From contig OZ024874.1 in NCBI GenBank assembly GCA_964017185.1, positions 32,712,721-32,776,720 of the forward strand: 64,000 bases of DNA, given 5' to 3'. The first letter of the stretch is position 1. Every line of letters starts with the position of its first letter. This DNA is from Rugalucina vietnamica. Taxonomy: Eukaryota; Mollusca; Bivalvia; Lucinida; Lucinidae. A program made the position numbers and the translations under genes. Positions 5,379 to 57,330 of the stretch are shown in pieces. Below the pieces are notes generated by a model that searched no databases, was not told the DNA's origin, and saw only the letters and a list, made by a program, of their open reading frames with translations.

Positions 5379-5578
5379 ACAAGGATAGCTTTTAAAAAAG
5401 CTAGAAGCGGCTCGTTTAGCATTTTGTATTATTACCACACCATTTTGGAAATCTATACATTTTTTAAACAAATAAACTTGTATGCTAGTGGTTTCTGAGA
5501 AAACAAATTTGTTATTTTGATGTGCATGAGCTCAAGATTACTCTCACACTGATCTCATGAGAATTAGTCGTAAAGTAA

Positions 5579-5654
<76 letters not shown>

Positions 5655-12945: not shown

Positions 12946-13317
12946 CAGCGGGTCGTTCATTTGTCGAGTTGCATCCCTGCCAGGGGCCCGATGACGGCAG
13001 TTGACAGCGGGCCATTGTGTTTGCAATGCTGAATGGGGCCGTTGGTAGCCATACTTATCAATGCTGACTGGGGTTAAATCGACCAAGTTAAGCCCCCCAG
13101 TTATTTTACTGATCGTTCCATGTCGGTTCTGTTGTTATTTCGGCTCGTCTCGACGAGCCGAATATACGATAGGATTTTGGCTGGGAACCTACGAAAAATA
13201 CCGAACACTCCGCATGACTACACAGGTTGGTTTCCGATCTACACTAATTAGTCATCCGGTAAGCCGAAAACATGTGATGTTTTAAACGTTTGCAGTGACT
13301 GGTTTAATGAAATCCAG

Positions 13318-14106: not shown

Positions 14107-14189
14107 CTTCCCCTCTTCAACGAAAAGAAAGTTTTGTGAAATAAAACTTCTTTTGCAATACTCATATGCAAACATACAAGGCAAAACTG

Positions 14190-17100: not shown

Positions 17101-19160
17101 TGACCTATAAAAGTGTCAGTTAAGTCAATATCCTGTATCCCATCATTCAATTTGACTTTTTTTGCCATAGCCCTTGTAACGGCACATGAAGGGTAAAGAT
17201 CAGGAATTTCCTGCTCAATGGGATCAGGCAATTGATCCTCACAAGGTGTATTGGTCAAAAGTGGGTTTACCACAACCTTATCTCCGGCTAAGTCATTGCC
17301 TAATAGCAAGTGAACACCTTTAAAAGGTAAAGAAGGCCTAATACCTACAGCCACAGGACCAGAAACTAAGTCTGAAGACAAATAAATGTTATGGAGCGGT
17401 ACATTAACAAATCCACACTCTACTCCCTGAATAAGGACACTTGTCCCAGTTGAAGTCTTCTCGGAAAAAGGCAGGGTATCTGCTAAAATAAGAGACTGAG
17501 AAGCTCCGGTATCTCGTAAGATTTTAATAGGGGTAGACTGGGCAGAATCACTAGTAAGTGACACAAAACCTTCTGATAAGAATGGTTCATAAATCTCTAT
17601 AATACAATCAGTCGCAGACGTTTTGGCCAAAATAGGATTTTCATCCTGAATAATCGACTGTGGTTTTGACCTTAAAGAAGTAAGACCTGTTGGTCTAGAA
17701 TTATTTTGATTTTGTCTCTCTTTTCTTCTTTTCAAAGTTTCACATTCAGAAATGACGTGACCGTCACCTTTACAATAACTGCAAAACAGCCGGGGTGAGT
17801 ATGAGGATCTTTGACCTTTGTTTTCACTAGTATCTTTATTTTTAGGATTATGTGAAGGACTGGAACTATCAGCTGTTAGTCCAGCTTGTGGTTGTGGATT
17901 AGGTTGAGGAGAATTATTTCTCTGTTGAGGGTTAAATGGTTTTGACTGAGGTGTATTAGGTTTAAATTGAGGGTTAAAAGGTTTCTTGTAAGGCTTATTT
18001 ACAAAAGACACCTTATGAGTCAAAGCATAATCATCAGCTAATCGTGCTGCTACATCTAAAGTTTCTACTTCCCTTTCGTCAAGAAAAGATTTGACATCAG
18101 AGTGTATGCATCGTTTGAACTCTTCAACAAGCATGAGCTGTCTTAATTTTGCATGATCAGACTTTACATCCTTTGAAGAACACCACCTATCAAATAATTG
18201 CTCCTTAGTTCTAGCAAATTCTACATGGGTTTGATCATGTTCTTTCCTACAATTTCTGAATTTCTGCCTATAAGCTTCAGGTACTAACTCATAAGCCTTA
18301 AGAATCAGATTTTTGACTGTGTCATAATCTGAACTTTGATCAAGTGGAAGCTGAGTGTAAATTTCTCGAGCTTTACCAATAACAACTCTCTGTAGAAGCA
18401 AGGTCCAATGCTCTTTTGGCCATTTCAAATTTTCTGCTACCTTCTCAAAATGTAAAAAATACTTATCTACCTCTTTTTCTTGAAATGGAGGAACGAGCCT
18501 GATATGTTTTGTAACATCAAATACTTTACTAGGATCAAAAGACACAGGAGGCATTGATTTACTGCTTAATTCAAGCTCTTTCATTTTTATCTCATAATGC
18601 ATTTTCTCTTTTTCAAGTTCTACTCTTTCTAACATTTCTCTGTGTTTTTCCTTCTCTCGTTCTTCCATTTCCCTTTGCTTTGCCTTTTCCCTTTCTTCCA
18701 TATCTATTTTTTCCTTTGCAAGCCTTTCTTCTAACTCTCTTTGTTTTTCTCTTTCCCTTTCTTCAAATGCTAACTTTTGTTTTTCAAGCTCTAACTTTTC
18801 TTTTTGCATTCTTTCTTCCCTTTCTTCCTTATCTGCCCTTCTTTTTTCTTCAAATTCTAATCTTAATTTTTCCAATTCAAGATGCCTTTTTAATTCTAAC
18901 TCCTTCAGCTGTATGTCGGTTTGTGAGACCATAATTAGAGATGTAGCTGAGGGTTCAAAAAATTCCTCATCAACAAGAAACTGAATGATAACATTCTTAA
19001 TTTCACGTTTTAACATAGATGTTTTGACATCAGGTATGCTATAATGACTAGCAATGTCTAAAAGATCACTCTTTTTGGCCAAGTTTAACAGCTCTTGAGA
19101 AGGCGCAGCAATGAAATCTTCAAGTTTGAATAACATGGTTGCTTTTTGCTGGTATGACAA
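14190..19160 (-). mobile_element. gag-pol coding region of the Gmr1-like element
   Basis: Read from 19160 leftwards. The gag part has a long charged coiled-coil stretch rich in E, K and R, then a gag core, then a CCHC zinc knuckle (CSYCKGDGHVISEC). Next comes an aspartic protease motif (DTGAS), and then an integrase with its HHCC finger (CHTC) and core (IIIDCVGPLP, SDQGSNF, YHPESQG). An integrase C-terminal GPY-like module (YYGPYTVEKRL) follows, then a reverse transcriptase (FRMCTDYRKVN, AYIDD) and RNase H (MAVDASDVGAGSVL). The product would be virus-like particle protein and enzymes for RNA-mediated movement. Described as a fossil with a small number of breaks. Confidence 0.9.
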
Positions 19161-19236
19161 ACAATAAATATCTTTTCAAATTCAGAATAAAATAGGTGCA
19201 CAAAATGTTCAATCCCGGCTCAGAGCCCCCAAAATC

Positions 19237-20026
19237 TGTTACGACCTAGCGTAACTAGACAGGTACAGCGAAAAACAACCAAGTAATTTAAACTTAACAA
19301 TATTTAATCAAACAAATAAATACATACAAACAAACAAACAGATAAGTAAATAAATAAATAAATAACTTACAAAGTTAATGTCAAATAAGTCCTTGTCCCT
19401 CAAATGTAAGTCCACAATCCAGTAACCAGAATATGAGCACATGTATATTTTAATCCACACAAAACACTAGTGAAACAACCAAAATTATATACTTTAAATC
19501 ACTTCAAATTTCTGAATACCTACGACTGAATTGGGACCTATATTTATACATCTAAGGAAATTCTCCAGGTTTCTAGAGAATGATATAATAAACTTTTCTC
19601 TAGAAAAGAAACGAACTAAACGAAAGTTCTTTTAAATTCTCCAAAGAGAATTTAGAATTCTCCAGAGAGAATTCAAGGCCGCAACGACCATCAAGACTAA
19701 ACGAGAGTCCACTAGACCCTTCGAGATCTCAGTAGTATACATAGTCCAAATATATTTTTAACTTATGGTAAAAAAAACACTCACTCCATTTTCATCTGGA
19801 ATTATCCACAAAGTGCTCATAGAATTTTCTATACTTCTAAATTATATAACAGTGATAAAAATAATCAATGACATTCTTCTACAAAGTTCTAGATAATAAA
19901 TTGTAGAAACATAAAAAGAAATATATATTAATTAATTGGGTTACTCCCCTTTGATTATATATATATATAAATTATAAGTAATAGCTTTTAAAAGAATCAA
20001 TATTATTGAATCAATTATATATAACA
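19237..20026 (-). repeat. 5' LTR of the Gmr1-like Ty3/gypsy element
   Basis: Near-identical partner of 13318-14106, with the same TGTTACG...ATAACA ends. CCAG follows at 20027-20030. Confidence 0.95.
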
Positions 20027-20577
20027 CCAGCCAATCATCATTTTTCTTTTAAGCAAAGTTCGGATGTAGACCATTTTGCGTATGCTGATATCGGGGCCGT
20101 AAGGGTCGACTAATTACCGAACAGAAAATCCAGGAAGCAGGTCATCTCTGCCTTTTTACTTTTCGGTCTTACCAAGTCCACTCGGCCTTTTTTTCTTTTT
20201 TAATTCAATTTGTTGTCCCTTTTAAGATAATTTCAGCTCATATAAGTGGGTGGTACGAAAACGGGAGGTCCACAAGAAAAACCATCTGGCAAACCGCAAG
20301 CAGAAGGTCTCGCAGCGTGATCAAAGGGACCCCACTTTCACTGACACAAGTCACACCAAGTAAACCATGTACACGACTTCCATACATTGGACCGTGTCTG
20401 TTCGCATCCGAAACACCTCTAATTTCTATAGCTATTTCATTGCAAGCAGTACTGTGGCTTATGCCTACTTAATGACTGATTAGTGTGGGTCGGAAATCAA
20501 CATATTTTTATCCCACTTGTCCATTATGTTTATGCACACAGAGCCGTTTCTAGCCTATAAAAGTGTAACCGTTACGG

Positions 20578-20578
<1 letters not shown>

Positions 20579-20666
<88 letters not shown>
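20579..20666. repeat. (CT)n(CA)n microsatellite
   Basis: Complement of the GT/GA tract at 5579-5655, within the right inverted arm. Confidence 0.95.
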
Positions 20667-20667
<1 letters not shown>

Positions 20668-21749
20668 TTACTTTACAACTTATTCTCATGAGATCAGTGT
20701 GAGAGTAATCTTGAGCTCATGCACATCAAAATAAGAAATTTGTTTTCTCAGAAACCACTAGCATACAAGTTTATTTGTTTAAAAAACGAAGAGATTTCGA
20801 AAATGGTGTGGTCATATACGAGCCGCTTCTAGCTTTTTTAAAAGCTATCCTTGTTTATCTTCTGTTGGTTTTCCTCTCTGTTGTACATCGCACTGTTTTA
20901 GGTCCGTCACAGTGTGAGTGATTCTTTATGATATCTGCTACTGATTCTTGATGATATCAGGTAACGGATTCTTGACAAATGCTACGGATTCTTGACAAGG
21001 ATTGATACTTCCAATTGCAAACAGCAAAAAATGGTAATTTTAGATAGTTGTAGATCTAAATTTTGTCAGGAGACATATTAGTAGTATGGTTTATATTAAT
21101 CTATGTATATATTCTACATGATAGGGTTTCAAAATAAAACCATTTAGATAAATTGAGCAAATATGAAAAACATGGCAATTCGGTATAATTATGTGAATTC
21201 CTAAGCAAACATGTTTGGAAACATTGAAACAGTTAATAAAAGTGATATGAGGACCTTCAAATTCTACATTACCCTGCGTAATAACCCTTTTTCATTTTTT
21301 TGCATGCTACGGATTCTTGATGATACGTTACAGATTCTGTATGATATCAAAATGTGGGTAACGGATTCTTTATGATATATGTTACTGATTCTTTATGATA
21401 AATGTTACAGATTCTTTATGATTTAAAGCAAGTTTATGATGTTCTACAACTTGAAATGCAGATTTGGACCCATGGTTTACCAATGAACTGTGTTTTTATC
21501 AACTCAACACTGCAAGAAATATGATCTGCAGTGTAAAATTTGATCAGATTTATCACAAACCAATTAATAATTGTGATTAATGTAGAACCTTGTTGTATAT
21601 TTGTGTATATCACAAAACACTATTATTTATTTATTTATTTTTTAACTTTTTGGTAAAATCAATTATTTTTTTTTCAATCAGTGAGACCGACAATCTTATA
21701 AGTAGTATTCATGCGTGTACAATTTTACTTTTTTTTCTGTTTTGGGTCT

Positions 21750-26785: not shown

Positions 26786-29632
26786 TGAATCTGAATCTGA
26801 ATAGTTTACTGGTGACACGCCAAATGACATTATTTCACCAGGGGGTTCGGATGGGGGGGGGGGGGGGAAATTAGTCCCTTGAACGCACGAGTGAAGCGAA
26901 CTTGGACACACAGTCATCAGACATTTCAGCAGAGGAGACAAGTGAATCAGGGAGGTCATTCCAGTCCCTGATAGTCTGTGGAAAGAAACTACTTTTGTAC
27001 GCTTCTTTGCTAGCTGAAGGTATCTGAAAAGCCAAAGAGTGTTGATTTCTACAACGCCTATTCTTTGGGATAAGGTCATCTGTGGGTATTCTGGCTTTAC
27101 CCTTTAGACCTTTGTATAGCAATATAAGTCTACTATCCTTCCTCCTTTTCTTAAGAGATTCCCATTTCAGTTGACCTAAAATGCCAGTCATGCTCCCAGT
27201 TTCAAAAACATAATTTCCCGTCACAAACCTTGCCGCACGATTTTGGACCTTTTCCAGTTCTTCTTGGAGGCCATGAGTGTGAGGGTCCCAAACTGAGCTT
27301 CCATATTCCAAGACCGGCCGCACCAGTCCTTTATAAGCTGCTTCTTTCACATCTGGGGGACAAGAATACAAATTTCTCCTCAAGAATCCGAGAGTTCTGT
27401 TAGCCTTTGTACAAACATTGGAAATATGAGTATTCCATTTCAAATCATTTGTGATAGTTACACCCAGGTATTTTATGCTTTCAACATTTTCCAGTAAAGT
27501 GCCCTCAAGGGTGTAGTTAGCCTGTATCTTACTAGACCGTTTATTTGTCAGCTGCATCATGTTGCATTTGACGGGTTGAAATCTCATTCCCCATTTTCTA
27601 GCCCAACTGCCTAGGCGATCAATGTCTCTTTGAAGTTTCAATGTATCCTCTTCATTCTTGATTTCACGATAGCAAACACAATCATCAGCAAAGAGTCTTA
27701 TTTCAGACTCGATGTCTGCTGAGATGTCATTTATATACAAGGAAAACAGCAAGGGGCCGAGAACGGTGCCCTGAGGGACACCCGACACAACTGGAGCCCA
27801 ATCCGATTTAATACCATTAACCACTACCCTTTGTTGTCTGAAACAAAGGAAAGCATTTATCCAATTCAGTGTTGTTCCACCTATTCCATAGCTGAACAAT
27901 TTGCTTTTAAGGAGTTCATGGGGAGGAGTATCGAAAGCCTTTTCAAAATCGAGTATAAAAGTGTCGACCTGGCCTTTTTTGTCTAAGATTTTGGCCCAGT
28001 CATTTATCACTGTAGTCAACTGAGTTTCACAGCTATGCCATTTCCTAAATGCGTGTTGCCTGTCCGACAGGAGTTCATGTTCATCAAGATGGGCCATAAT
28101 ATTTGAGCATACAATATGTTCAAGAAGCTTACAAGGAATGCATGTCAAAGAAACAGGGCGGTAATTGCGGGCAAGTGACCTGTCGCCCTTCTTAAACAGG
28201 GGGCAAATATTAGCAAGAGACCATTCTTTAGGAATTTCACCTGTATCAATTGACTGCTGGAAGAGATGGGCGAATACTGGCCCTAATTCCATAGCCAGTT
28301 CCTTTAGGACTCTAGGATGAAGCTCATCAGGCCCTAAGGCTTTAGACGGGTTTAGACCTTTGAGAAGTTTGGTCACCCCTTCCTTTGTGACCACAATATC
28401 ATGCATGAATGGGGCAGATCTATCCATAAGAGGGACCTGTTTGTATTCACTTTTAGTGAAAACATCCGAGAACTGACCATTAAATTCTTCCGCCTTCTCA
28501 AATTCAGATTGAGCTATTCCACTTCCATTTCTCTTTTTCAACGGGGGAATACCTTGGGTATCTTTTTTCTGACTGTTTATGTACCTGTAAAAATCTCTAG
28601 GATTAGCCTTAACATCTCCTACCAAGTTGTTCACATAAAGATCATGCTGCTTCCTGATATCAGCTTTGATCTCTTTCCGTAAAGATTCAAATTTAGATCT
28701 AAATTTTGCACTACCAGTCTTTTTAGCTTTTGCATGAGTTGCATTTTTTCTGCGAATCTTCCTTCTTATTTCAGGTGTTATCCAAGGGACAGAGGAAACT
28801 GAGCGACTAGTTTTTGAGGGGATATGTTTATCTGCCGATTCCTGAATAAACGATGTAATGAGATTGAAATTTTCCTGGACCGACCGAGTATCTGAGTAAC
28901 CGTTGAAGTATCTTTCCTTTGCAAATTTAAGTGTTTCTGCTCTCATAGATTCATAATCACCTTTCTGATAACGATACACTTTTCTCCTAGGTTTCTTTAT
29001 AGGGGGGATAGCAATTTTCAATGTGCCAGAAACAATGTCATGATCACTGAGCTTATCCGGGGAATGAATGTCTACAAACTGACCAGGAAGAGAGGTCAAA
29101 ATTAAGTCCAAAGTATTTCTTTCTCTGGTGGGGAAATTGACTAATTGTTCCAAACCATGGTCATTCATGATATCTATCAAAATCTGACCCTCCGTCTGAC
29201 TCAATGATGACCCAGATTTGCTGAGTCTGTCCGGCCATACAATATCTCTAAAGTTGAAATCACCTAAAACATGAATTAAGGGGGGTTTGTTGCCTTTATT
29301 AATATTTTTGATTTTGTCAAGCTGTTCTCTAAATAAATTGTCAAACTTTTCCAGTGAATTCAATAAGTCATTTCCATTGTCCGATACTGGTAAATGACCA
29401 TCGACAGGTGGTCGATACCAGCTAGCCACAAAGTGAGTTTTCTTATTTACAAAAAGTTTGACCCAAACTGACTCTGAGTCATTGTCCAATTCTGTGAGGG
29501 GCATGTGTGGGATGTCCTTGTGTACAAGAAGCATAACACCACCACCATGTAAGGTTCTATCCTTTCTGTACACGCTGTATGGAAAAGATTCCGGAAATAA
29601 TTCAGACGTTAATATGCTTTATTAACCATTTT
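26786..29632 (-). mobile_element. CR1/Jockey-type LINE, 5'-truncated
   Basis: Non-LTR retrotransposon on the minus strand. The 3' end is at the left, a short ATTCAG microsatellite tail (three units, 26787-26804), typical of CR1-like elements. The 5' end is lost within the endonuclease domain: in-frame similarity (LTSELFPESFPYSVYRKD) can be followed upstream to a stop near 29620. The LINE sits inside the TA-flanked element at 20901-29881. No target duplication was resolved. Confidence 0.85.
26871..29573 (-). CDS. LINE endonuclease/reverse transcriptase (ORF2, 900 codons, open)
   Basis: Long open frame of a CR1/Jockey-type LINE. The N-terminal third is the endonuclease/exonuclease/phosphatase domain: VHGD-type GDFNFRDIVWP near residue 107, LDLILTSLPG and SDHDIVSG near 165-190. 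The reverse transcriptase lies at roughly 400-680, with the motifs NYRPVSLTCIPCKLLEHIV, LDFEKAFDTPPHELL, SGVPQGTVLGPLLFSLYIND and catalytic FADD (RLFADDCVCY). The C-terminal part has YLGVTITNDLKW and a VLEYGSSVWDPHT stretch usual in this clade. The product nicks target DNA and copies its own RNA there. The frame has no internal stop over 2.7 kb, so the copy is young despite the missing 5' end. The first in-frame ATG is probably internal because the endonuclease start is absent. Confidence 0.92.
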   Translation of the reverse strand: MYRKDRTLHGGGVMLLVHKDIPHMPLTELDNDSESVWVKLFVNKKTHFVASWYRPPVDGHLPVSDNGNDLLNSLEKFDNLFREQLDKIKNINKGNKPPLIHVLGDFNFRDIVWPDRLSKSGSSLSQTEGQILIDIMNDHGLEQLVNFPTRERNTLDLILTSLPGQFVDIHSPDKLSDHDIVSGTLKIAIPPIKKPRRKVYRYQKGDYESMRAETLKFAKERYFNGYSDTRSVQENFNLITSFIQESADKHIPSKTSRSVSSVPWITPEIRRKIRRKNATHAKAKKTGSAKFRSKFESLRKEIKADIRKQHDLYVNNLVGDVKANPRDFYRYINSQKKDTQGIPPLKKRNGSGIAQSEFEKAEEFNGQFSDVFTKSEYKQVPLMDRSAPFMHDIVVTKEGVTKLLKGLNPSKALGPDELHPRVLKELAMELGPVFAHLFQQSIDTGEIPKEWSLANICPLFKKGDRSLARNYRPVSLTCIPCKLLEHIVCSNIMAHLDEHELLSDRQHAFRKWHSCETQLTTVINDWAKILDKKGQVDTFILDFEKAFDTPPHELLKSKLFSYGIGGTTLNWINAFLCFRQQRVVVNGIKSDWAPVVSGVPQGTVLGPLLFSLYINDISADIESEIRLFADDCVCYREIKNEEDTLKLQRDIDRLGSWARKWGMRFQPVKCNMMQLTNKRSSKIQANYTLEGTLLENVESIKYLGVTITNDLKWNTHISNVCTKANRTLGFLRRNLYSCPPDVKEAAYKGLVRPVLEYGSSVWDPHTHGLQEELEKVQNRAARFVTGNYVFETGSMTGILGQLKWESLKKRRKDSRLILLYKGLKGKARIPTDDLIPKNRRCRNQHSLAFQIPSASKEAYKSSFFPQTIRDWNDLPDSLVSSAEMSDDCVSKFASLVRSRD

Positions 29633-31469: not shown

Positions 31470-32970
31470 CTGTTAACCGAACTGGGTCCGAACTTGTTAG
31501 CCGAGCTGTGTCCGAAATGTAAACCAAACTGAGGCCGAACATGTTTACCTAACTGGGGCCGAACCTGTAAACCGAACTGGGGCCGAACCTGTTGACAGGT
31601 TTGGCCCCAGTTCGGTAAACATGTTCGGCCCCAGTTCGGTTAACAGGTTCGGTCACAGTTCGGCTAATACTTTCGGTTTACACGTTCGGACCCAGTTCGG
31701 CTAACCGGTTTGGTTAGCAGGTTCGGCCACAGTTCGGTTAGCAGGTTCGGCCACGGTTCGGTAAGCAGGTTCGACCACAGTTCGGTTAGCAGGTTCGGCC
31801 ACAGTTCGGTTAGCAGGTTAATTCTGTCATAGTTAGGTCAGCAGGTTCGGCTAGTTCGGCCACAGTTCGTTTAGCAGGTTCGGTCACAGTTCGGTTTGCA
31901 GGTTCGGCCACAGTTCGGTTGGCAGGTTCGGCCACAGTTCGGTTAGCAGGTTCGGCCACAGTTCGGTTGGCAGGTTCGGCCACAGTTCGGTTAGCAGGTT
32001 CGGCCACAGTTCGGTTAGCAGGTTCGGCCACAGTTCGGTTGGCAGGTTCGGCCACAGTTCGGTTAGCAGGTTCGGCCACAGTTCGGTTAGCAGGTTCGGC
32101 CACAGTTCGGTTAGCAGGTTCGGCAACAGTTCGGTTAGCATGTTCGGTCACAGTTCGGTTAACAGGTTCGGCCACAGTTCGGTAAGCAGGTTCGGCCACT
32201 GTTCGGTTAGCAGGTTCGGCCACAGTTCGGTTAGCAGGTTCGGCCACAGTTCGGTTGGCAGGTTCGGCCACAGTTCGGTTAGCAGGTTCGGCCACAGTTC
32301 GGTTAGCAGGTTCGGCCACATTTCGGTTGGCAGATTCGGCCACAGTTCGGTTAGCAGGTTCGGCCACAGTTCGGTTAGCAGTTTCGGCCACAGTTCGGTT
32401 AGCAGATTCGGCAACAGTTCGGTTAGCATGTTCGGTCACAGTTCGGTTAACAGGTTCGGCTACAGTTCGGTTAGCAGGTTCGGCCACAGTTCGGTTAGCA
32501 GGTTCGGCCACATTTCATTTAACAGGTTCGGTGCCAGTTCGGTGAAAGTGGTCGGCCCAAGATCGGCTAACAGGTTCGGTCCCAGTTCGGCTAGTTCGGC
32601 CACAGTTCGGTTAGCAGGTTCGGCCACAGTTCAATTAGCAGGTTCGGCCAAAGTTCGGTTAGCAGGTTCGGCCACAGTTCGGTTAGCAGTTTCGGCCACA
32701 GTTCGGTTGACAGGTTCGGTGCCAGTTCGGTGAAAGTGTTCGGCCCAAGTTCGGCTAACAGGTTCGGTCCCAGTTCGGCTAACAGGTTCAGCCTCAGTTC
32801 GGTTTACATGTTCGCACTCAGTTCGGTTAACATGTTCGGTTAACAGGTTCGGTCCCAGTTCGGCTAACAGGTTCAGTCTCAGTTCGGTTTACATGTTCGC
32901 ACTCAGTTCGGTTTACATGTTCGGTTAACAGGTTCGGTCGCAGTTCGGTTTATATGTTCGGACCCAGTTA
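31470..32970. repeat. 24-bp minisatellite, orientation flips near 31593
   Basis: About 60 units built on TTCGGTTAGCAGG followed by TTCGGCCACAG, with variants (GACCCAG, GTTTACATG). Units left of the palindrome ACCTGT-TG-ACAGGT at 31587-31600 are in the opposite orientation from those to the right. Because 24 is divisible by three, several frames on both strands stay open (up to 233 codons, e.g. minus 31810-32511 with AEPANRTV repeats). I regard these as repeat artefacts, not genes. Confidence 0.9.
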
Positions 32971-33608: not shown

Positions 33609-33882
33609 AACTATAGCTCAGGTTGTGTTGGTGTCTTAATTTTGTGTTGGTGTCTTAACTTGGAATTTTCCTGTAAAAAATAATTGTTACTACATGTACA
33701 TGTATGTGCCCATGCATGCAACTGATGGTGTCTCAGTTATGGATTTTGTCAAACTAGTTTCATTGCTCTGATGTTTCAGAAGCTATTCCAAGCTAATATA
33801 ATTACATAAATCTAGACTGTCACATACCCTACTACTTAACCTGTCATGGGTGAACTGATGATGTGACACATTTCTAAAATTA

Positions 33883-34595
33883 TGTAACGTATGCGGGGCT
33901 AGCTTGATAAATATATATATATATATATATAATTTTCCTTTGGGACTACTTTGTCCTGTGATTATAGACCAATGATTTTTACAATGATTGGATGAGCAAA
34001 ACAAAAATCATAGGAATCAACTTAATATGCATATAAAACAAATGTGATGATGCTCTGCACTCTGTATATGAGCTCAGCCTGAACCTCTGCTGAGCTAGCT
34101 CTGACTATTAGTATCAGCCTACACTGCTGATGATCCGTGAGTGACCAGCATATACTTCTGCTAGGCCAGTCCTATGCTAGTAACATAAACCACCTTAATC
34201 GCCTAAGACTGTTCACTGCTTGGTTATATTAATCAATGCTACTTGGATGGACTGTGTCCACTTTTCGCTATTGCTACTGAGATGGATAAAATCCACTGTT
34301 CGCCACTAAACCAAGCTTGCAATCAGTCTTTAATAGATTTTATATTGGTTTATTTACTTTATCTGTACTCTCCGACGACTTCTTGCTAACTGAACAACTC
34401 GCAGTGCGAAACACAGGTATTTATACTATCGGTGACGTCACACACTTTGGACGAATCTACTTTGCGGGCGAGTCTATGTTTCAAATCACCTTAGAAACGG
34501 GGTTGTCAGGCTACTCAAAGTCGTTTCGACCAAGTGAATTAATCGCCGGTACTTTCCTATGAAGACCGACTTGCAAAAATAATGATTTTGTCACA
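33883..34595 (-). repeat. 3' LTR of Ty3/gypsy element 2
   Basis: 713-bp repeat, TGTAACGTATGC...TTTTGTCACA on the + strand, nearly identical to 41633-42343. The differences seen are one substitution and TA-run length. Confidence 0.9.
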
Positions 34596-34913
34596 CTACC
34601 CACGCCTCCGGGTATATGCGTCCTCGCATAAAAATAAACAACTAAAAAAAAATCATGACATTAACATTATTTTTGTTCAACATTTTTCAAAAATCATCAT
34701 CTTCGGCATCATCATCATCATCATCATCAAAATCATCATCATCATCATGTCTGTCCGCATCGGACCATGCCTTACTTTAGGCTTATCTTATAGATAATTA
34801 TCCATTATTACTTTTACTTTTTTTGTATATCATAGACCTGACCTTGGTCTAATTTATCATGTCAATGAAAATGAAACTTCATTGCCTTCCTGACAGCACT
34901 GAATTTGAACACT

Positions 34914-35943
34914 TTAATCATCAGACTCAGGGCAATATGTAAGGGTTAGTTCAACATTCCCTTCTCCTTTCAGCCGCAGATTGATATCATTTGCATTAAT
35001 ACTTCCGTCTGGAATGATATCGCCCATATCTATCTTAACTGGCCCTGTCTTCTGCTTCTTCCTTCGAACTTTATCCCTGTAAGTCTCCTCACCATTTTCT
35101 GTCACTGTTGTGACAGATTCAGATGATCCCTCTTTTATCATACTCTCGCATGTCACCTTGATTTCTTTCTTTCTCTTCAGTATCACGTTATCTCTCTTCA
35201 CCTGTACAGCTTCCCCTTTCTGTCCAATGTCCTCGTTCTCTAGCTTTTCGTCTACTCTCTGTTTCTTAGGTGCAACTGGGATGTCAGGGGTGGTGGCTTT
35301 CCGGATCACCCTGCCAAGGCACAGCTCTTTCTCCTTATCCACACTGCTCTGATCAACTTTGTCTTTCTTAATTTCCTGTCTTCTTGAGTCATTGTCACTT
35401 GAGCTGTCACTATCATCAGAGACCTGTAATTCTCCCTCCAAAGATACATCAGGTGACTTATCCCAGTCATAGTTTTCTTCAGAAACTAGATCGACACTTT
35501 CTACCTTCTTAGCCGTGCTCACTGTCTCTTCTTTTTTTCTGCACCTGACCATCAGAAACTTTCTTTTCCTTACTATCCTTCACTTTACTCTGATCATCCA
35601 GGTTATGCTTCTCTTCTTCAACATAAATGTTTGCTACATGACTGTTCGTCTTCAGGCCAACTTTGAAATGTCCTACAGATCTTTTCAATGTTCTGTTTAT
35701 GCTTGCCCAAGCCTGATGTTGCGTTCTCTTGTGCTTCTCGAGATACGATTTCAGTTTGAAGGTATTGCCACAGGCATGGCAAGTCCATCTGTTCCTGTAG
35801 CACTTGATCATGTGCTGTTCATACTGGTCTCCTTCTTCAAATAATGCGGTACTGCTGTTCTGGTTCACACTTATCAAAGTTATTCCAATTACGAGTTTCA
35901 TGTTGCATGGCTTTGTGACCACCCGAATATAATGGCTGTTCAC
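34914..35943 (-). mobile_element. Zinc-finger coding region between pol and 3' LTR of element 2
   Basis: Same strand as pol, in the place where an envelope gene would be, but not envelope-like: no signal peptide or membrane segment. It contains a C2H2 finger (TCHACGNTFKLKSYLEKHKR then TQH), followed by a lysine/glutamate-rich, low-complexity stretch with basic clusters (RKKQK) and an acidic end. It could be an accessory nucleic-acid-binding protein or a captured host zinc-finger gene. Treated as part of the fossil element, with perhaps one break. Confidence 0.6.
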
Positions 35944-36109
35944 TTAGCCCTCTGCATTTACTTGTTCTGTCCAAGCTAGCACTGTGACCACCTAATACCT
36001 TCAATAGCTGCTCACTCTGCTTTCCGTTATTTATGTTAAACGTTGGTATCTATGTTTAGTACTTTCTTAATAAGATTTCTTATTTCTTGTTTATCACTGA
36101 ACCACTACA

Positions 36110-36450
36110 GAAGCTGAGGGTGAGGTTAGGTACCTGTAAAACCGGTTTAAGCCCGCCAGTAACTTTGTGTTACTGATCGTTCCAAGTCGATACTTCTGTA
36201 GTGGTTCTTTTTGTTTTATGTCTTGGTGTTTAAAATTTTTTGTGCTGTTGGCGCCTTATGTATGTTTTCATATTTTTAGTTAAGTTAAGGTAACTGAGTG
36301 GCCACCTATTGGGAAAATAGCTGCTCATTCGGCTTACGATATGTTTCATGGTATAAGTACCTGATTGTTAGTTTGGTTTTTTTCCCACCTCGGTTTTTGG
36401 AGTGGGAATCTTTTTCTGATTGCGCCTTTTCCTGATCTTTGCCTACTTGT
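36110..36450 (+). repeat. Dispersed repeat family R1, copy 2, inside LTR element 2
   Basis: Shares GGTAACTGAGTGGCCACC, GGGAAAATAGCTGCTCA, CCCACCTCGG, TTTTGGAGTGGGAATC and TCTGATTGCGCC with copies at 21750 and 62790. It lies at the junction of pol and the zinc-finger region, so the extreme C-terminal end of the pol frame runs into repeat-derived sequence. TAAGCCC-CCAG and ACTGATCGTTCCA words near 36150-36180 also occur near 13090-13120. Confidence 0.55.
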
Positions 36451-39400
36451 ACCTTTTTACACCAGGTACATCTGGTCTTTGCCTTATCTGCCATGCTGTG
36501 TTTTCTTGGAGTAACCTTTGTGTTAACCATCCTGCAAGAGAAAACATAATCTTTAGCCCAAACAGGTTTTCTACGGACTCTCTTTCTATCAGATTCATAA
36601 TCTCTGTCTGTGTCCATAACGGGCTGGTGAGCAGATTCTAATTCTTCTACTTCATCTATCTCATTATCTCTATCTGCTTCAGGCTCATCATTATTCTCAG
36701 GTTCATGTGCATGACCTTCTTCATGACCTTCTATATCAGACTGTTCAAGTTCACCTCTTAGAACTTGTTGTCTGCACAACTTAATTCTGTCACAGTGAAT
36801 TATTTGCTCAGCATTATTGCGACCACAATTTACTTTGTACAAAACGTCTGACAGTTTGCCAGTAACTTTGAATGGACCCCTCCAGAAAGGCGTCAGCTTT
36901 GCAGAGGTGCCCACCTTCTTCACAGGGAAATGCACAAACACTTGATCTCCAATCTTAAATGTTTCAAAGGACATTCGCGAATCGCGATTTCGTTTTTGCC
37001 TATGCATAGCTTGCTGTGTGTATTGACGTACGAGTGTGTGTGCCCTTTCTATACGGTCCCGTAATTCCCAAACCCATTGATTGCTTGGGATCGGCTTACT
37101 CAGATTTGGGAGCTCATACACAAGGTCAAGCGGTGTTGAAACTTCGCGACCAAACATTAGCATGTTGGGACTCATCCCAGTTGTTTCATGCTCGGTACTA
37201 CGGTAGGCCATGGTAACGTAAGGTAACTGTTCATCCCAATCTCTATGATTTTCGCTGACGTATGCGGAAAGCATCGCCGCAAGCGTGCGGTTGAACCGTT
37301 CAACCATTCCGTCGCTCTGTGGATGGTAAGGGGTAGTGCGCGTCTTGTGTATACCTAGCAATTTGCACATCTCTTGAAACAAATTACTTTCAAATTGACG
37401 TCCTTGATCAGAATGGATAACTTGGGGAATTCCAAATCGACAAAGCACATTTTCCACAAGCACTTTTGCTACAGTACATGCTTCCATGTTTGGGATCGGC
37501 AAAGCCTCGGTCCATTTCGTAAAGTAGTCGCCGATCACCACAATGTACTTATTGCCTCTTGGTGTCTCAGGTAGCTCACCTAAAATGTCAATGGCAATCC
37601 TCTCCATAGGAAAACTGCTTCTGACAATCTGCATCGGTGCTCGCTTTGATGGAATTGGGCCTTTGCGTTTGCTACAAGCATCACAACCAGCTATATAGCT
37701 TCTGACGTCAGATTGTAAGCCAGGCCAGTAAAACTTCTGCTTGATTTTACTGACAGTCTTCGTGACACCCAAATGTCCTGATGTTTTCATGTCATGGCAG
37801 GCATACAAAATGGATCGTCTAGCCTTCTTGGGGACGATCACTTGAAATGTGATCACATTATCTTCATCCAGATTTTCTTGTCTCCGAACAAGCAAATCAT
37901 CGTGTAGTTCAAGGCATGGAAACTGATTCCAGAGTGATTTCAATATGTAACCTTCAGCAGCAATGACGGCAAATTCTGGCCTCTTATTTGCTTGCATCCA
38001 TGAACGAACTACAGCTAGTTCGTCGTCATCTGCTTGCAGAGATTTTAAGTCATCAAACTCACTCATACTTTCATCAGTATTCTCATTTCCTACATGCATG
38101 CAACTCGGATTTAACTCTTTTGCATCATCCTGTGGACTATTCCTATGGCTAGTTGTGACTGTGTCATCAGTACAAGGCTTTCTGCTCATGCCATCTGCGT
38201 TACCATGCAATCTTCCAGGACGATGTTCAATTGCCATGGAAAACGTTGATAGAACCTCTAGCCAGCGGGCTACCTGACCCTCTGGGTTCTTAAAGTTCAT
38301 CAGCCAGCGTAAGGACGCGTGATCTGTCCTAGCTGTGAACTTTCGCCCATAGAGGTAGTGTCGGAAATACTTCACAAAGTATACAAGGGCTAGTAACTCC
38401 TTTCGAGTTACACAGTATTTTCTTTCCGATTTAGATAGCGTTCTGCTTGCGTAAGCTATCACACGCTCTTCATTTCCTGTTTTCTGTGACAAAACCGCCC
38501 CAATTGCATGATTACTTGCATCCGTGTCCAGAATAAATGGTTTAGTAAAGTCTGGATGAGCAAGTATGGGAGCCGTCACAAGCATGTGCTTCAGTCTATC
38601 AAATGCATCTGAGCATTCAGACGTCCAGTTGAACTTCTGGTCTTTTTCTGTGAGCCTCGTCAACGGCTTAGCAACGTGCGAATAGTTGGCAATAAACCGC
38701 CTGTAATAACTACATAGTCCAAGAAATGACCTGAGCTCAGTGATATTCTTTGGTGTTGGCCAGGTTTTAACACATTCAATCTTCTGCGAGTTAGTGTGTA
38801 TCCCGTGTTCATTTATAACATGGCCTAAGAAATCGACCTCCCTTTTGAACAGTTGACACTTTTGTGATTTCAATTTTAGACCAGCCTGAGCAAATCTTGC
38901 TAGCACAGTGTCTAGATTCTGTATCATTTCCGCAAATGTCTTCCCAAAAATGATTATGTCATCCAAGTAGATCAGGCATATTTGCCAATGCAACCCTGAC
39001 AGTACCAACTCCATTAACCTCTCGAAGGTCGCAGGGGCATTACATAAGCCAAAGGGCATTACGTTGAACTCGTAGAGACCGCGCCTGGCTATGAAGGCTG
39101 TCTTCTGTCGATCGTCAGGATCGACTTCCACTTGCCAATAACCAGCACTTAAGTCCAAACAAGAAAACCATTTGGCCCCTGCAAGTTGGTCCAGAGATTC
39201 ATCAATTCTGGGTAACGGGTAGGCATCCTTGACTGTGACGTCATTCAGGCGCCTGTAGTCAATACAGAAACGCCTGGACCCGTCCTTCTTTTTCACAAGC
39301 ACAATAGCACTGGCCCATGGACTTGTCGATGGCTGTATGATATCATGTTCTAGCATAAGATCAAGTTGCCTATCAACTTCATCCTGCATATGTACAGGAA

Positions 39401-41540
39401 CTCTGCGCATGGCTTGTTTTATTGGCCTTGTGTTATCTACTGAAATTTTGTGCTTAATAATGCCTGTCCTACCTAAGTCATGTTCGTCCTGGGAAAATAT
39501 ATCTCCATATTTTCCTAAGAGATTTGCAATTTGTTTCTTTTGTGTGGAAGACATTCCTTCTGATGCTCTTTCATAGAGCTCAGTCAAATGCTTGGGTAGA
39601 TTTCTGGGAGGCTTTGTCTTGACTTCCTGTACGGCCCTCAGAACCTGCGCTGGACAAAATTCAGCAATGTTTGTACCGGGGTACAATATCTGATCCTCAT
39701 TAGAAAAGTTGGCATATCTAATGGGTATTTTTCCATTAGCTTTCACGAGTGTTCTTGCAACAACTCCTCGGTTTGAATTTAGAAACTTGTCCGAAGTTTC
39801 TATGATGCTTATGTTGTCATCACTGGAGTCCCAGTCTACCAATTGTCCTTCAAGGATAACCTCAGATCTACTTGGCACATGTACCCTTTCTTTGACGATG
39901 ACTTGGTAGCAGCCGATCTTTCCAATTTTAACCAAAGGACACACTGTCCCTTTAATATGCATGGTCATACCAACAACATCTACAATGACATCATGCATCG
40001 ACATGAAGTCCAACCCTAGAATAGCATCAATGTCCATTTCAGCTATCACTACGTCCATGACACACTTCACTCCGTTTATCACAAAACAAACGTTTGCTTT
40101 GCCTTTTGTATCAAGGACATTTCCAGACGCAGATACGATCTCTTTATCAAATTTTTCCAGAGAGATTGTACCTTTAATGGCAGACCAAACCTTAGATGAC
40201 AGTAGACTGAGTGTTGCCCCGCTGTCAACTAAGCAGTCGGCACCATATTTTCCGAGCTTAGCTTGCACAAATAATCCAGCATGATTGGTACTGCTCAGAC
40301 AAACACTCTCCTTATTTGTAGAACCAGGTTTATCCTTGTCTCTATTACTAGTTTTGGGCTGAGTACAATCTTTAATCAAGTGCTGGTCAGAGTTGCAGTT
40401 AGAGCACCTGCGAGCTGTCCTGTTCTGACCCTTGACCTCGGGTTTATAACTACCATTATTAACCCTTTGTCTGTTGGTGCCATTATCAGTCCTCGTCTGA
40501 GCAGGCGGTCTGTTATTACTCACCGGACCTTGCTTTGAGGGCTGATTTTCTTGACGATAATTACTTTTCCGTTGCTGAAACAACAGCTTGTTCATAACTT
40601 TGGTCATCTCATCTAACCTGTTGTTCAGAGACGAGAACGCTTCAGCCAATTTCTTGTCATCAACTTGTTCGCTTGGGACAGCTGTATTTATGAACCCCTG
40701 TCCAGCTTGTCTACTTTCTGCTCTATAGAAAGCCTCTAATTCGACAGCGTGTCTCACAGCGTCATTAAGATCAATAGGCCTTGCCTGCTTGATCTTCAGT
40801 CTCATTTCCGTGTTGACCAGCGAGTCGACAAACTGTTCTTTAGCTAAGGTCTCCCTCACATCGCTGGGAGCTTTAGGATATGCGAGGTTGGTTAGGCGTC
40901 TTATATCCTGTCCAAGCTCGGCCATGCTTTCAGATGCTTTTTGGCGGCGATCACGCAACTGGACCCTATATAGTTCAGTCTGGTTCGGAGGTGCGAAGCG
41001 CTCCTCTAGAGCCCTGACCAAGTCACCATAATCATGCTTGCCAGACTCTAAATTGCCAAACACACCTTGTGCTTGCCCACATAGTGATACAGAAAGGTAC
41101 AGACCTTTCTGTTGATCCGTCCAGCCGTTCAGCTCGGCACATGCATCAAAATGTGCCTTGTAGTCCATCCATGCTACGCTACCATCATAAGTGGCTGGTT
41201 TCATAATTACGTCCTTTGATTTTGAGCCAGAGCTAGCTGGCTTCTTTCTATTTGTCACAAACCTATCAGGTATCTCATGACTGTCTATGCCTTCCGCCTC
41301 AGACAGTCCGGCCTCAGCACCATGAGCATCATCTGATCTCCCCTTAGGTATATCTGACCATACCTTCCTAGAACCTAGACCTTGCTCGTCTTTAATTGGT
41401 GCTGGGGTAGAAAGTAGCCCAGACATTTCGCCTAGCTCTTGTCTATAGCTCCTGAGCTCATGCTCCAACTTTAAGACCCGATTTTGCCTCTGGAGCTCTT
41501 CAATCTGACGAGACATTTCTTCGTAATATTTATCGTCCAT
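36306..41540 (-). mobile_element. gag-pol coding region of Ty3/gypsy element 2
   Basis: One long polyprotein frame of about 1,744 codons. In order: an N-terminal coiled coil (residues 1-50), a gag core with a YDGSVAWMDYKAHFDAC motif (about 115-290), and a CCHC knuckle CSNCNSDQHLIKDC (about 385). Next come an aspartic protease motif DSGATLSLL (about 440), a reverse transcriptase (FCIDYRRLNDVT, MPFGLCNAPATF, YLDDIIIF; about 700-880) and RNase H (LDTDASNHAIGAVLSQ). Then integrase with an HHCC finger and core (AIDILGELP, SDQGRQFESN, YHPQSDGMVERF), a GPF-type tail (WRGPFKVTGKL) and a charged C-terminal end. Apparently whole in this part. Confidence 0.93.
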
Positions 41541-41632
41541 ATTGCAGTAATACTAAATAACAACTGATGATAGATGGGTAAGCCTATTGGTTAATGCAAT
41601 AGAAATTTGCCCCACGTTGGTCGCCAAAAATA

Positions 41633-42343
41633 TGTAACGTATGCGGGGCTAGCTTGATAAATATATATATATATATATAATTTTCCTTTGGGACTACTTT
41701 GTCCTGTGATTATAGACCAATGATTTTTACAATGATTGGATGAGCAAAACAAAAATCATAGGAATCAACTTAATATGCATATAAAACAAATGTGATGATG
41801 CTCTGCACTCTGTATATGAGCTCAGCCTGAACCTCTGCTGAGCTAGCTCTGACTATTAGTATCAGCCTACACTGCTGATGATCCGTGAGTGACCAGCATA
41901 TACTTCTGCTAGGCCAGTCCTATGCTAGTAACATAAACCACCTTAATCGCCTAAGACTGTTCACTGCTTGGTTATATTAATCAATGCTACTTGGATGGAC
42001 TGTGTCCACTTTTCGCTATTGCTACTGAGATGGATAAAATCCACTGTTCGCCACTAAACCAAGCTTGCAATCAGTCTTTAATAGATTTTATATTGGTTTA
42101 TTTACTTTATCTGTACTCTCCGACGACTTCTTGCTAACTGAACAACTCGCAATGCGAAACACAGGTATTTATACTATCGGTGACGTCACACACTTTGGAC
42201 GAATCTACTTTGCGGGCGAGTCTATGTTTCAAATCACCTTAGAAACGGGGTTGTCAGGCTACTCAAAGTCGTTTCGACCAAGTGAATTAATCGCCGGTAC
42301 TTTCCTATGAAGACCGACTTGCAAAAATAATGATTTTGTCACA
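41633..42343 (-). repeat. 5' LTR of Ty3/gypsy element 2
   Basis: 711-bp partner of 33883-34595, same ends. The near identity implies recent insertion. Confidence 0.9.
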
Positions 42344-42453
42344 CTTATATATAATTATTTGAAACTTAAATCTGACTTGTTTGCCATTCATGCTCCAATA
42401 ATGTTTCTAACGCAGTTTGTTTTCTTACCATTTGTACTGGCTATATTTTTCAG

Positions 42454-51665: not shown

Positions 51666-52483
51666 CAAGCGTGTCTTGATACATTTCACACGTATTGCAT
51701 AGACTGGCGATTAACTGTCAACGAGTCTGAAACTAAAATCTTAATATTTGGGGCAAGCAAAACGGACAATTTCAGTTTCAAGTTCGGAGAAACGACTCTC
51801 GAATTCGTAGACACATACAAATACCTAGGAACTGTGTTCTCTAAATCTGGTTCTTTTCTAAATGCCAGAAAACATGTACTAGAACAAGCTAAGAAAGCCA
51901 TGTATCTCTTAAAAATACGTATAAAAAAATCTCGATCTCCCCATAGACCTCCAATTGAAACTATTCGATAATACGATTCTCCCGATACTAACTTACGGGA
52001 GCGAAATATTTGGGTTCGAGGACTGTAAAATGCTAGAAATCATCCAAAATAATTTCTTGCGTTCACTGGTGAATTTCCGTAAAAGTATGCCATTATACAT
52101 GGTCCTTGGCGAATCCGGCAGATACCCATTGGAATTAGCCATCAAAAGTAGAATGATTGGTTTTTGGGTCAGAATTTTAACAAATAAACCGACTAAATTG
52201 TCCTATATACTATATAGAAAACTTATAGAACCCCCCCCCCCCCCATACTGTAACCATCGAAAGTCTTGTCCTCGGGAGCTAGGCACCAATAAGAGCAATT
52301 TACTAACTAAACACTTACCTGGCATAGTTAATATCCTTTTTTTTTTTTTTCTTCTTGTTTTTTAATCGAGTTTCAACATGCTGCCATGCTTTCAGCCAGA
52401 CAGAAATCGTGACCATGCTTAGCACGTTGAACACATACCGTTCCGTACAGCTAGGGACTATACCGTTTGTCATATCCCCATTA

Positions 52484-55400
52484 TAGTGAGGGTCGAGATG
52501 TAAAAATTTTAGCTCCCGTGCGATTTTTGTGCTAAAATTGATTTTTTTATTTTAAATGATAGTTTACGGCTTAAACAATCGGAAAATTATGGGGTTCAAT
52601 TTTTTCCAGCCCTTGACCCAATTTTAAGGGCTCTCAATGATGACCACGCCCATTTTGTACCATTTTAGTCCTGCAAACATTAATCCGTCTCTTTATTCTT
52701 TAAAAACTTTACATTGGGCATGCATTCTACAATTTATATCTTCTTTGGAAGCTTGTATTGTGTTAAATAATGAGAATGTGCTACTTATTGGCGAGAGAAG
52801 CCTACTATACGTATAAAAAAGAAGTGGGTGGGGTAATTAAAGGCGGAAAATGGGGATGATGTGTTAGAATTCCGTTACATGGTATAAACGTTATAAAAAC
52901 AACTTATTCTAATACCTGGAACGTTTTAACATGCAAATTTACTAGACTATCATATGAACCCGTCAAAACCAACCCTGGGTAATCATAGGGGTAAGCAAAA
53001 ATAAACTTATTTGTGGTCTGAGCAAGTGCCTAACCTAAATGCTTGCTCAACAAAATCTTGCTCCTTTACTGATTCACTCGTCATCTTCGTTATCTATGTC
53101 ACCAATTCGTATTTCCTCTTTGATGAGATTGGCACATTCAGTGGCAAAGCATTTACAAAGAGGTGTGCAAGGCAGTTTGTTACTGTAGCACTTACATCTC
53201 GAGCCAATACATCCCGTTTTACAGCCACACTTTGTCAATTCAATAACAGCTTTTGGAGCTGGATCATCTAAGCACATCACTGGCTTGTATAGAGTTCCCT
53301 TTACCAGCCACCCGCTTTTGTCGATAGGTGGGAGAACTGGGCAGTTTGTTGTGTAGGATTTGTCACGCATGGCTATGTAATTTGCACGCGTAATATGAGG
53401 GAGAAGGGTTGCGCGTGTTGGAGGTAAACTCTCGCCTTCCAAGTTCCGTGTCCGAAACATTTCCCATCGTAATGACGGCAGGTTAGTAGGTCCTGACATA
53501 CAATATACGCGGCACACAAAGTGTTCTAAACCCTGAAGCTGCGGGGGTAGCTCCCCATTATCAAGCTGAGTAGGAATGACTGATGAGCCGAGATTCCGAA
53601 AACAGTCAATGGCTGGGTCGTCTTCGTTAAGTGACATATAGGCATCAACCCACGTTTTCTTTGATTTGCCCACGAATTTCCCACCCCAATCCGCGCCAGA
53701 GAAGTTATGAAGCCCCACGAAACCTTGACATTTGCAAGCGCCAATAACACGTACTCTTTCGATTACATCTATTTCCCTATATGTTCTGCCCTTTCCAGTT
53801 AAAAATTTCAGGCGTGTTTGAGGTGCAAGTAAGCCGCGTGAGACGAGATCAATCAGAAGAATGAAGACGTCTGTGTCCGGTGATGAAACACATATCTCAC
53901 GACAAGGCTGTTTTGCTGCAGACGCCAAAACCTGATTGGGTATAAGTGTATCAGCCTCTTCGTGAGTATGAACTTCTTCTACTTCTCGACCTTTGATCCT
54001 GTTGTCGTAAGCCACAATCACAGAGCAAGTAGCACTATCATGGAAATGTGCGATCAAGCCTTCTGCCAGATATACTGTCAAACTGCTCTTTGTTTTGGAT
54101 GAAGAGAGAAGTTCTTTAAGAGGCATTGAGAGTTTCATTTCAGAATGAATTTCATATTCAGTGGTAGTTGCAGCCCTCTTTTGTCGCGTCTTGTTTTTCA
54201 ACGACTGATCAAGATAGCGATCAAATATTATCCGGCCTTCATTGAAACCATTGAGCATGTTCTATGCGTTTCACAAATGTTTCCTTTAGGTCAGCAAGTG
54301 TGCGCATGGTTGGGTTTTTCTTCATACTCTGAACCACAGCCATGGCATCAACAACCAGGGCCCGATCTCTGTAATCAACAGTTGTGGTTTCAGGTAGGTC
54401 TGGTACACGTGGCTCAGTCTTTGCAGCTTCAATTACATGCATCAAACATGCTTTGTCTGTCGGAATATAGAGCGACCCATCAACGGCACACAACGATCGT
54501 GGAACTACAGACATCTCGTACTCACCAATGGCATCCTCAAGCTTCGGAACAAGTTCCGGACGACTTCCTTGTATGATGAGAAATCTTCCAAATAGTTCCC
54601 TTTCTTCACGAAGCTTGATAACCTTGTCGCCTGTTCTGACTTTGATTTTTTCCATCCAGTTAGAAAATGTCTTCAGCTTGAGCTTTTTCATCGGGTCCCA
54701 GACTGAAATAGTCGATGTAGACAGCAATCGTTCATTGATGAAGTCTTGGAAACGTGCTTGACCCTTCTCCGCAAAATTGAGAATATCGTTCTTTGCATCA
54801 CTTGGGACAAGGGCTGATGAGACAAGACTTTTCAATGGTGACCCAGCCTGTTCAAGATATTCTAGCATGAACTGAGCCTGTTCCCCAGCATTTTCTCTTT
54901 CATTTAGCTTAATGTTTTCTGTGTACCAAGTCTGAATATTTTCAAAGATGACATTGGCATCCGGACTTCGCTCGTGAAGGGCCTTTTGAAGAGAGTCACA
55001 TTGGGTCCGGAGTAAGTCTGGCAAGGGCTCTTTTGCGTTTGCATCAAAGAGCATCATTAGGATTGCAAGGCATGTTGTGATGTGATATTCTATTCCTCGT
55101 TTGTATGCTTTGCCCCCATAAATTCCCCGTAGCGCTGCCGATGTAAAAGTACCACTTTCGACAGCACATGTATCAATGCCACTGCCATCTAGTGTTTTAC
55201 CAAGTGCATGTAGAGCAGCAAACACGATGTGCAGAACACCTGCTCGCAGGACCCAGTTGGTGTTTCCAACTGTCTGTTGAATTTGAAGAGCACGGCTATA
55301 AAGATCAAGGTCGAGTGTTATGATTGTTTTCCTTTCAGGGCCAACAACAACTGCCGAGACGCCCTGTGTCAGCATCAGAACAGTATACAGAGTTGTTATG

Positions 55401-57201
55401 TCAGTGGGAGAAGTCTTGAACAGAGGGGCAATTACTTCAGTATTTGTTCGAGTGATACTTTCTTGCGTCTTTGAAAGCAGTAGGGAACGAGTTGCGGCCC
55501 AAGTGGGCATGACGTCTTTCTTTGCTAACCTTTTTCTTTCATCTGTTTTTACCGACACTGATATGATAGGTTTGTCTAATGATTGTGCGCCTTGGTTGTG
55601 AGGAGACTCAATTTCCGAAGTATCAATACTTTGAATGTCTTGATCCTCAGATAAGCCTTGCTGCTCAACAGTCTCCACATTTGCATCATCTGTGCTTTTG
55701 CTGTCTTCATGCGTAGCTAGGAAGGACGCAAGGGCCCAACAATGGGTTCAGCTCCGTTGGACAAAAGCTACAGGATGAGAACATGCAAATTTGAGCTTTG
55801 GGGACTGTTTTTGTTCTTTTTGGTCGGGGGGTGTCACCAGAAGTTGAGGGTCTTCCACGCTTGTGCAGAGAACTACTAGCAACAGGAGAGTCAGATCTGG
55901 AAGTCTTATATTTTCGCAGCCGCTCAATATTCACTTTATTCACTAAGGGCTTCCTACATTCGCTATGATAATAGACAGAGCTCTTTTCACTTTCACTTAG
56001 ACTGTTCAGGCGATCACAGAGCGGTTTGATTTCGAGTTCGCCAAGAGATAGCCGCTCATTACAACATGTTACTAAATCCGCAATCATTTCAGAACTGCTG
56101 ATCAGTTTCTTGGACGATGGAGTTGAGCCCTCATTGCAAATTATACACAATTTAGTCTCCGACATTTTGAACATGTGTGTTCTGTGTCTGCGTTTGATAC
56201 AGACAGAGAAAATAAAAGTTTCAAATAATTTAATGACGTATTTGCGTACATTGTATTTATTACAGATTTAGCGCTCGTTCGGTTAACCCATAGAGCTGAA
56301 CGCCTGAAAGGTGGTTTTGGTGAGCGAAAGTTCGCCCAAAAGCAAATGGAATCGCTGAAAAATATACATAGAAGGATGATAATGCTGTTTGTGTTTAATT
56401 AGAAAATGTATAGTATGTACATGCCCTCCCCAAACACAATAGTGGCACGTGAAAGAGTTCACAGTAAATGCGGCAAGACAAATGAATGGCAGAAACACGC
56501 ACAAAACAATGTAAATCCGTATGCATTTTGGGCATTTGCATGCCCATATTTGGGCTCTTATGGGTGTAGGTGTAGCTGGGCTCACGGAAGAACCCACACT
56601 TGGATCTATAACCTTTTTGACAATTCAAAATTAGGGTACATGTTGATATTGGCGTAGTCGAACAGATTTCTTTAAAAAATGCCAATATATGGACATTCAT
56701 CACTTAGAGAGCACTTCATTTGAAATGGGCTCTATGGGTGAAGCCCAAAAGCTCTGCTATGTTGTTAGGAAACATATTTTATCTAATGGCCATTTATGTT
56801 TACCCAATATTCAAACAAATACAAATTCAGACGAATCTATTAAAGTCAGCGGCAAAAATCACCATTTTGGGCTCCGCCATGGAAATAAAGAGCCCAAGTA
56901 TGGGCTTCAGGATATTTCTATCACAATACAAGTATTAAAAATGGACTTGGCACCCTTAAATCAAGTATTTTTGGCACTAAGCACTTCACGATTAGTTAAA
57001 TATGCGAGATGTCATGAAACATTTTGTTCTAAAATGGGCTTAACGGCTAATTTTTGTAAATGGGAGCCCAGTTTTGGATGTGGGGCTTGGAAAAATTGAA
57101 CCCCATCATTTTCGTGCATAGTACACCCAAATCAATTGATTCAAGCAAAAAAATCAATTTTAGCAAACAAATCGCACTGGATTACATATCGACCCTCACT
57201 A
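52484..57201 (-). mobile_element. TIR transposon encoding a zinc finger, PIN/XPG-like nuclease and CXC tail
   Basis: TAGTGAGGGTCGAGATGTAA at the left end and its inverse at the right (ending CGACCCTCACTA, 57201) are flanked by TTA (52481-52483, 57202-57204). The inverted ends extend about 130 bp imperfectly, with shared GTGCGATTT, GCTAAAATTGATTTTTTT and ATGGGGTTCAATTTTT blocks. The element sits in the 3' UTR of the LINE. Its only coding content is the minus-strand protein at 53074-56174. The 3-bp duplication and an XPG-like domain would be compatible with the Academ superfamily, but that is a low-confidence guess. Region 56280-57050 has unassigned GGGCTC-rich words. Confidence 0.7.
53074..56174 (-). 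pseudogene. Transposon-encoded protein: N-terminal zinc finger, PIN/XPG-like nuclease, CXC domain (two frameshifts)
   Basis: About 1,030 codons in three frames: 55707-56174, 54239-55678 and 53074-54258. The first switch is near 55745 (the second frame is already open upstream of 55678, reading ASFLATHEDSKSTDD), the second within 54239-54258. N-terminal part: start MFKMSETKLCIICNEG, a Cys/His cluster (CIIC...C...YHSECRK) and a basic Ser/Pro linker. The middle is mostly helical and unassigned (LRAGVLHIVFAALHALGKTL, SGTFTSAALRGIYGGK). The last third has HEEADTLI followed by SSPDTDVFILLIDL, the acidic pattern of XPG-I/PIN-type nucleases, then GLHNFSGADWGGKFVGKSKK. The C-terminal end, CGCKTGCIGSRCKCYSNKLP then CTPLCKC, resembles tesmin/TSO1 CXC zinc-binding domains. 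No DDE transposase core was recognised. Likely an inactive copy of the element's own gene. Confidence 0.7.
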
Positions 57202-57330
57202 TTAGTATGATAATCTTTATTGGAAACCTGTAGTCACCAGCTCATACCTAAATGTCATGTTTACTGTATCTTCACTACCCCCACCCCTTCTTCCTCTCTT
57301 CTCTTCACTTACCTAGACTCTACCATAACC

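Follow-up and report, generated by a model that had tools for sequence, protein, structure and literature searches.

We find that the 4718-bp unit with terminal inverted repeats (TIRs) at positions 52484-57201 of a 64,000-nucleotide stretch of the Rugalucina vietnamica genome (the window; C6:32712721-32776720 of the 1.09-Gb genome) is very probably an Academ-type (AcademX-like) element, a cut-and-paste DNA transposon, in a non-autonomous copy with internal deletions. By sequence comparison, it is a broken deletion derivative of longer copies, lacking about 1.8 kb of coding sequence that full-length copies of the same genome contain. The initial annotation, based on the letters of this copy, had seen no DDE core and had raised an unusual transposon design in which the nuclease might be the mobility enzyme or an essential partner. 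Both claims have to be given up, as the full-length copies have conserved DDE-like acids in a core whose model matches Hermes and RAG1; the cut-and-paste enzyme had escaped notice because most of it is deleted in the window copy. When one copy is read alone, a deletion derivative can mimic a new transposon design.

A search of the genome with the 502-amino-acid (aa) frame of the window element gave near-identical matches in open frames of 1015-1647 aa, with a gap of about 0.5 kb between the two halves. Over the shared bases, the copies L009, L010 and L011 (6515, 6523 and 6540 bp) are 98.56, 98.43 and 99.09% identical to the window element, and L012 (6510 bp) is 94.42% identical. The gene is in one frame (1647 aa) only in L009 among these four, the others having frameshifts or stops. 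The deletions in the window copy are as follows, with residues numbered as in the L009 protein:

55752/55753 (feature 55747-55753): junction of a frame-shifting deletion of 1274 bp, residues 157-580 gone, including D498, with a few filler bases
54846/54847: junction of an in-frame deletion of 522 bp, residues 883-1056 gone, including W898, D965 and E969, with CC microhomology
54260-54261: 2 bp absent here but present in the four aligned 6.5-kb copies, a loss that shifts the frame and splits the nuclease domain

D728 is therefore the only DDE-like acid surviving in the window copy, D498 and D965/E969 having gone with the deletions, and the 2-bp deletion parts the nuclease acid D1223 from the remaining nuclease acids, leaving them in two frames. 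The gene is left as three overlapping minus-strand stop-to-stop frames of 186, 502 and 395 aa, with the following contents:

55753-56165, minus strand: first gene fragment, N-terminal Cys/His domain, L009 residues 19-156, first ATG at 56163-56165
54239-55747, minus strand: second gene fragment, 502 aa, L009 residues 583-882 and 1057-1252, then a few out-of-frame residues
53074-54261, minus strand: third gene fragment, 395 aa, L009 residues 1253-1647, most of the FEN/EXO1-like nuclease and the CXC-like tail
53116-53229, minus strand: CXC-like cysteine cluster, with a Cys pattern found in most of 32 aligned rows

The second fragment includes D728 (55310-55312), H755, part of the helical insertion and the nuclease acid D1223 (54347-54349). 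In the third, whose nuclease fold is taken from the L009 model, D1266 is at 54220-54222, HEEAD ends at 53950, the SPDTDV acids are at 53875-53877 and 53869-53871, and GAD is at 53689-53691; the codon positions of the acids in both fragments were derived by hand. The initial annotation described HEEAD, SPDTDV, GLHNFSGAD and a Cys-rich tail correctly, and its sole gene holds at a cut-off of at least 200 aa, since only one stop-to-stop frame reaches that size in the 9 kb of the near-identical L009 locus.

The full-length protein of about 1650 aa is predicted to hold a DDE transposase whose RNase H-like fold is interrupted by a large helical insertion. All 32 rows of an alignment consisting of L009, 23 of 46 homologs and 8 open reading frames of the genome have the same residue at D498, D728, D965 and E969. 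The 23 homologs left out of this count are mostly short and include P0006, P0008, P0045, P0046 and P0047 (1445-1801 aa); alignments of 34 rows take in 33 of the 46 homologs, among them P0006, P0008, P0045 and P0046 but not P0047. Neither the window frames nor the L009 protein nor the alignment A1 gave an informative match in sequence or profile searches of Pfam and PDB, the A1 profile returning only two, both to unrelated proteins (E 0.017 and 0.5). After structural re-alignment, the L009 core model matched Hermes and RAG1 best. A DDE or RNase H-fold match in the middle domain, which the initial annotation had named as a result that would overturn its proposal, is found in the full-length copies, with reservations: the match is structural and moderate in Z score, at 4-11% identity, and Foldseek alone found no match to the core model (best E 0.22).

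Pfam DUF6589 matched four of the nine longer proteins scanned, above the cut-off in L023 (E 2.9e-11) and slightly below it in L013, L019 and L020 (E 2e-5 to 5e-6), with no match in L009, L010, L021, L022 and L028; the same Pfam label is carried by 3 of the 46 homologs. Since the matches span the second aspartate to just beyond E969 (that of L023 covering the later part only), DUF6589 is read here as part of the Academ-type DDE core. The papers turned up by our literature search do not mention DUF6589, and linking it to this core would aid the annotation of unnamed proteins.

The PIN/XPG-like nuclease first noticed in the window copy is a real FEN/XPG-type domain, judging by the model of the C-terminal domain of L009, which has a PIN-like fold of this type; the rows seen are about 11-15% identical. 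At the domain level, the PIN-like fold and the full metal-binding acid set of the FEN/XPG superfamily are found in the full-length relatives, nearly all of which keep the nuclease acids; these we take to correspond to the FEN1 residues. The claim of a CXC tail holds as far as the cysteine pattern goes, but the Pfam CXC models remain below their cut-offs (MSL2-CXC 9.7 and 11.7 bits against 26.7, TCR 11.3 against 23.5), and the sub-threshold matches have E 1.3 (MSL2-CXC, Pfam) and E 0.081 (LIN54, PDB sequence). We call the tail CXC-like by its Cys pattern only, and do not assign it to the Tesmin/TSO1 or MSL2 CXC families.

Among the 85 scored candidates of the genome search, the window alone matched the full 502-aa frame, and therefore no other copy with its 522-bp deletion occurs among them. 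L031 and L032, at separate places, have four internal gaps relative to L009 in common, and the breakpoints agree to within 2 bp; such deletion derivatives therefore seem to have multiplied in the genome. A second family of the same kind is very young: its six copies (L013-L018) are 99.1-99.98% identical in pairs over aligned stretches and have single frames of 1662-1664 aa, and L013 and L014, for which both ends could be read, are about 7.7 kb long.

The ends of the window element are the following:

52481-52483: left target-site duplication TTA, identical to the 3-mer at 57202-57204
52484-52621, plus strand: left TIR, imperfect, starting with TAGTGAGGGTCGA
57074-57201, minus strand: right TIR
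57202-57204: right target-site duplication, a copy of the left TTA

The flanking TTA and the alignment of the arms confirm a mobile unit with imperfect TIRs of about 130 bp, as originally described. The arms pair at 52483-52503/57182-57202 (95%), 52514-52555/57140-57181 (86%) and 52582-52621/57074-57113 (83%), and as a single BLAST match they span 132 columns (72.7%, E 9e-14). Across the whole window, the 13-bp terminus is matched with zero mismatches at the two element ends only, and with 2 mismatches at two more places; TIR-like 13-mers at 5731, 6266, 13234 and 20481 belong to a different long inverted repeat. We examined 23 copies (the window, L009-L028, L031 and L032), judging boundaries and duplications by eye and taking TAGT as the element start. 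Both ends and the duplication could be read in 11 of them, with 3 bp duplicated in 10 and 4 bp in one:

3 bp: TTA in the window; TTT in L009, L014 and L032; TGA in L010; ATA in L012; ATT in L013; AAA in L023 and L027; AGT in L026
4 bp: TTAC in L011

All 11 start with TAGT and have the gene or its remnants within the TIRs; a gene lying outside the TIRs in other copies, the other finding that the initial annotation thought would undermine it, was not seen among them. The duplication count leaves out the remaining 12 copies (L015-L022, L024, L025, L028 and L031): the right end alone was seen for L015-L018 and a single end for L025 and L031, while L019, L020, L021, L022, L024 and L028 gave no TAGT ends with a duplication, inverted repeats being present near some of them.

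The fit to AcademX is based on three features, the DDE core, the nuclease and the duplication of 3-4 bp, and is made by description; Academ was the right superfamily for the initial annotation to compare. A link between Academ and an XPG nuclease was reportedly made by Kapitonov and Jurka and by Kojima in 2020, and in our literature search no paper on Academ or AcademH contained the words XPG nuclease as a phrase. In Kojima 2023 (PMC10045372), where the word XPG is absent, duplications are 3 or 4 bp in AcademX and 9 or 10 bp in AcademH, lengths seemingly related to the encoded helicase and nuclease. AcademX and the family described here both have TIRs, duplications of 3 or 4 bp and a nuclease beside the DDE transposase, whereas the window copy is without two of the three DDE positions and without an intact reading frame. 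AcademH, of the same superfamily according to that paper (PMC10045372), has a helicase and 9-10 bp duplications in contrast to the FEN-like domain and 3-4 bp found here; Pfam scans of the long proteins gave no helicase match, and we do not place the family in AcademH. In the excerpts consulted, Academ is counted among the DDD/E-transposase superfamilies (PMC9587614, PMC10294476), and an earlier paper mentions a RecQ helicase in Academ (PMC3627910).

The core resembles those of hAT (Hermes) and RAG1 in having an RNase H fold with an all-helical insertion before the last acid, which offers a structural reading of the Academ-type core as Hermes/RAG1-like with a FEN/EXO1-like partner domain; unlike Hermes and RAG1, the family has an extra nuclease, a CXC-like tail and 3-4 bp duplications, at 4-11% identity. 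Target-site duplications are 8 bp in hAT, 5 bp in RAG/Transib, 3 bp of the TWA type in PIF/Harbinger and TTAA in Kolobok. The lengths in all 11 copies rule out hAT, the presence of TTT, TGA, ATA, ATT, AAA, AGT and TTAC beside TWA rules out PIF/Harbinger, and Kolobok is ruled out as none of the 11 duplications is TTAA. With the FEN1/EXO1/XPG 5'-nucleases the family has in common the fold and the ordered conserved acids, including the E-x-D and D-x-D pairs, whereas the nuclease here is fused to a transposase and is about 11-15% identical.

It is very unlikely that the element is truly DDE-less and moved by its PIN/XPG-like nuclease. The window copy without its triad, the retention of the nuclease acids and the moderate Hermes match missed by Foldseek alone would agree with this, but the absent segments are encoded by longer copies that are 98-99% identical, and the four invariant acids and the re-aligned Hermes and RAG1 matches argue for a DDE core. 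A separate superfamily, close to Academ but with a FEN-like nuclease gained on its own, is improbable: the Academ likeness is judged from descriptions, on features that do not include the TAGT termini or the CXC-like tail, but the duplication length and the nuclease both agree with AcademX as reported (PMC10045372), and curated full-length bivalve Academ elements are given a comparable mean size of 5565 bp in the excerpt consulted (PMC10294476). The broken gene pieces of the window copy, taken alone, could also come from a host gene that became enclosed by inverted repeats unrelated to it; with the gene or its remnants inside TAGT-starting TIRs and a duplicated target in 11 of 11 copies from several diverged families, the chance of this is close to nil.

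For an Academ-type element, the TIRs, duplications, deletions, conserved residues and predicted folds are the sequence and model basis from which we infer every biochemical step that follows. The full-length element of about 6.5 kb encodes one protein of about 1650 aa with an N-terminal Cys/His domain, a DDE core, a FEN1/EXO1-like 5'-nuclease and a CXC-like tail, and the Cys/His and CXC-like regions may aid DNA binding. The DDE core (D498, D728 and E969 or D965) would cut the TAGT-starting ends and join them to the target with a 3-4 bp stagger, and at the donor or the target gap the FEN-like nuclease might trim flaps, or ends that derive from hairpins. The window copy can make neither enzyme whole, and any move after the deletions would have used protein supplied in trans. 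We tentatively raise the possibility that the FEN/EXO1-like nuclease, whose acids are conserved together with the DDE positions, is a working second catalyst that trims flaps or ends derived from hairpins and thereby fixes the duplication at 3-4 bp, compared to 9-10 bp in the helicase-bearing sister lineage AcademH; if true, this would be a transposase of the hAT/RAG fold in which two enzymes are naturally combined.

The different long inverted repeat in the window (5379-6378 with 13134-13317 and 20027-20854) has arms that are 92-98% identical, the right arm being split by a Gypsy-looking long terminal repeat (LTR) element at 13318-20027 with LTRs that are 99.6% identical. The kind of this element was judged by eye from its reading frames, and we regard it as a nested recent insertion. 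A second Gypsy-looking LTR element at 33876-42345 has 99.4% identical LTRs and an open frame of 1748 aa, and a 915-aa frame at 26871-29618, also named by eye, looks like the endonuclease and reverse transcriptase of a long interspersed nuclear element. The tandem array at 31591-32969 is open on both strands (with repeats such as NRTVAEPA / RFGHSSVS) and appears minisatellite-like rather than a gene.
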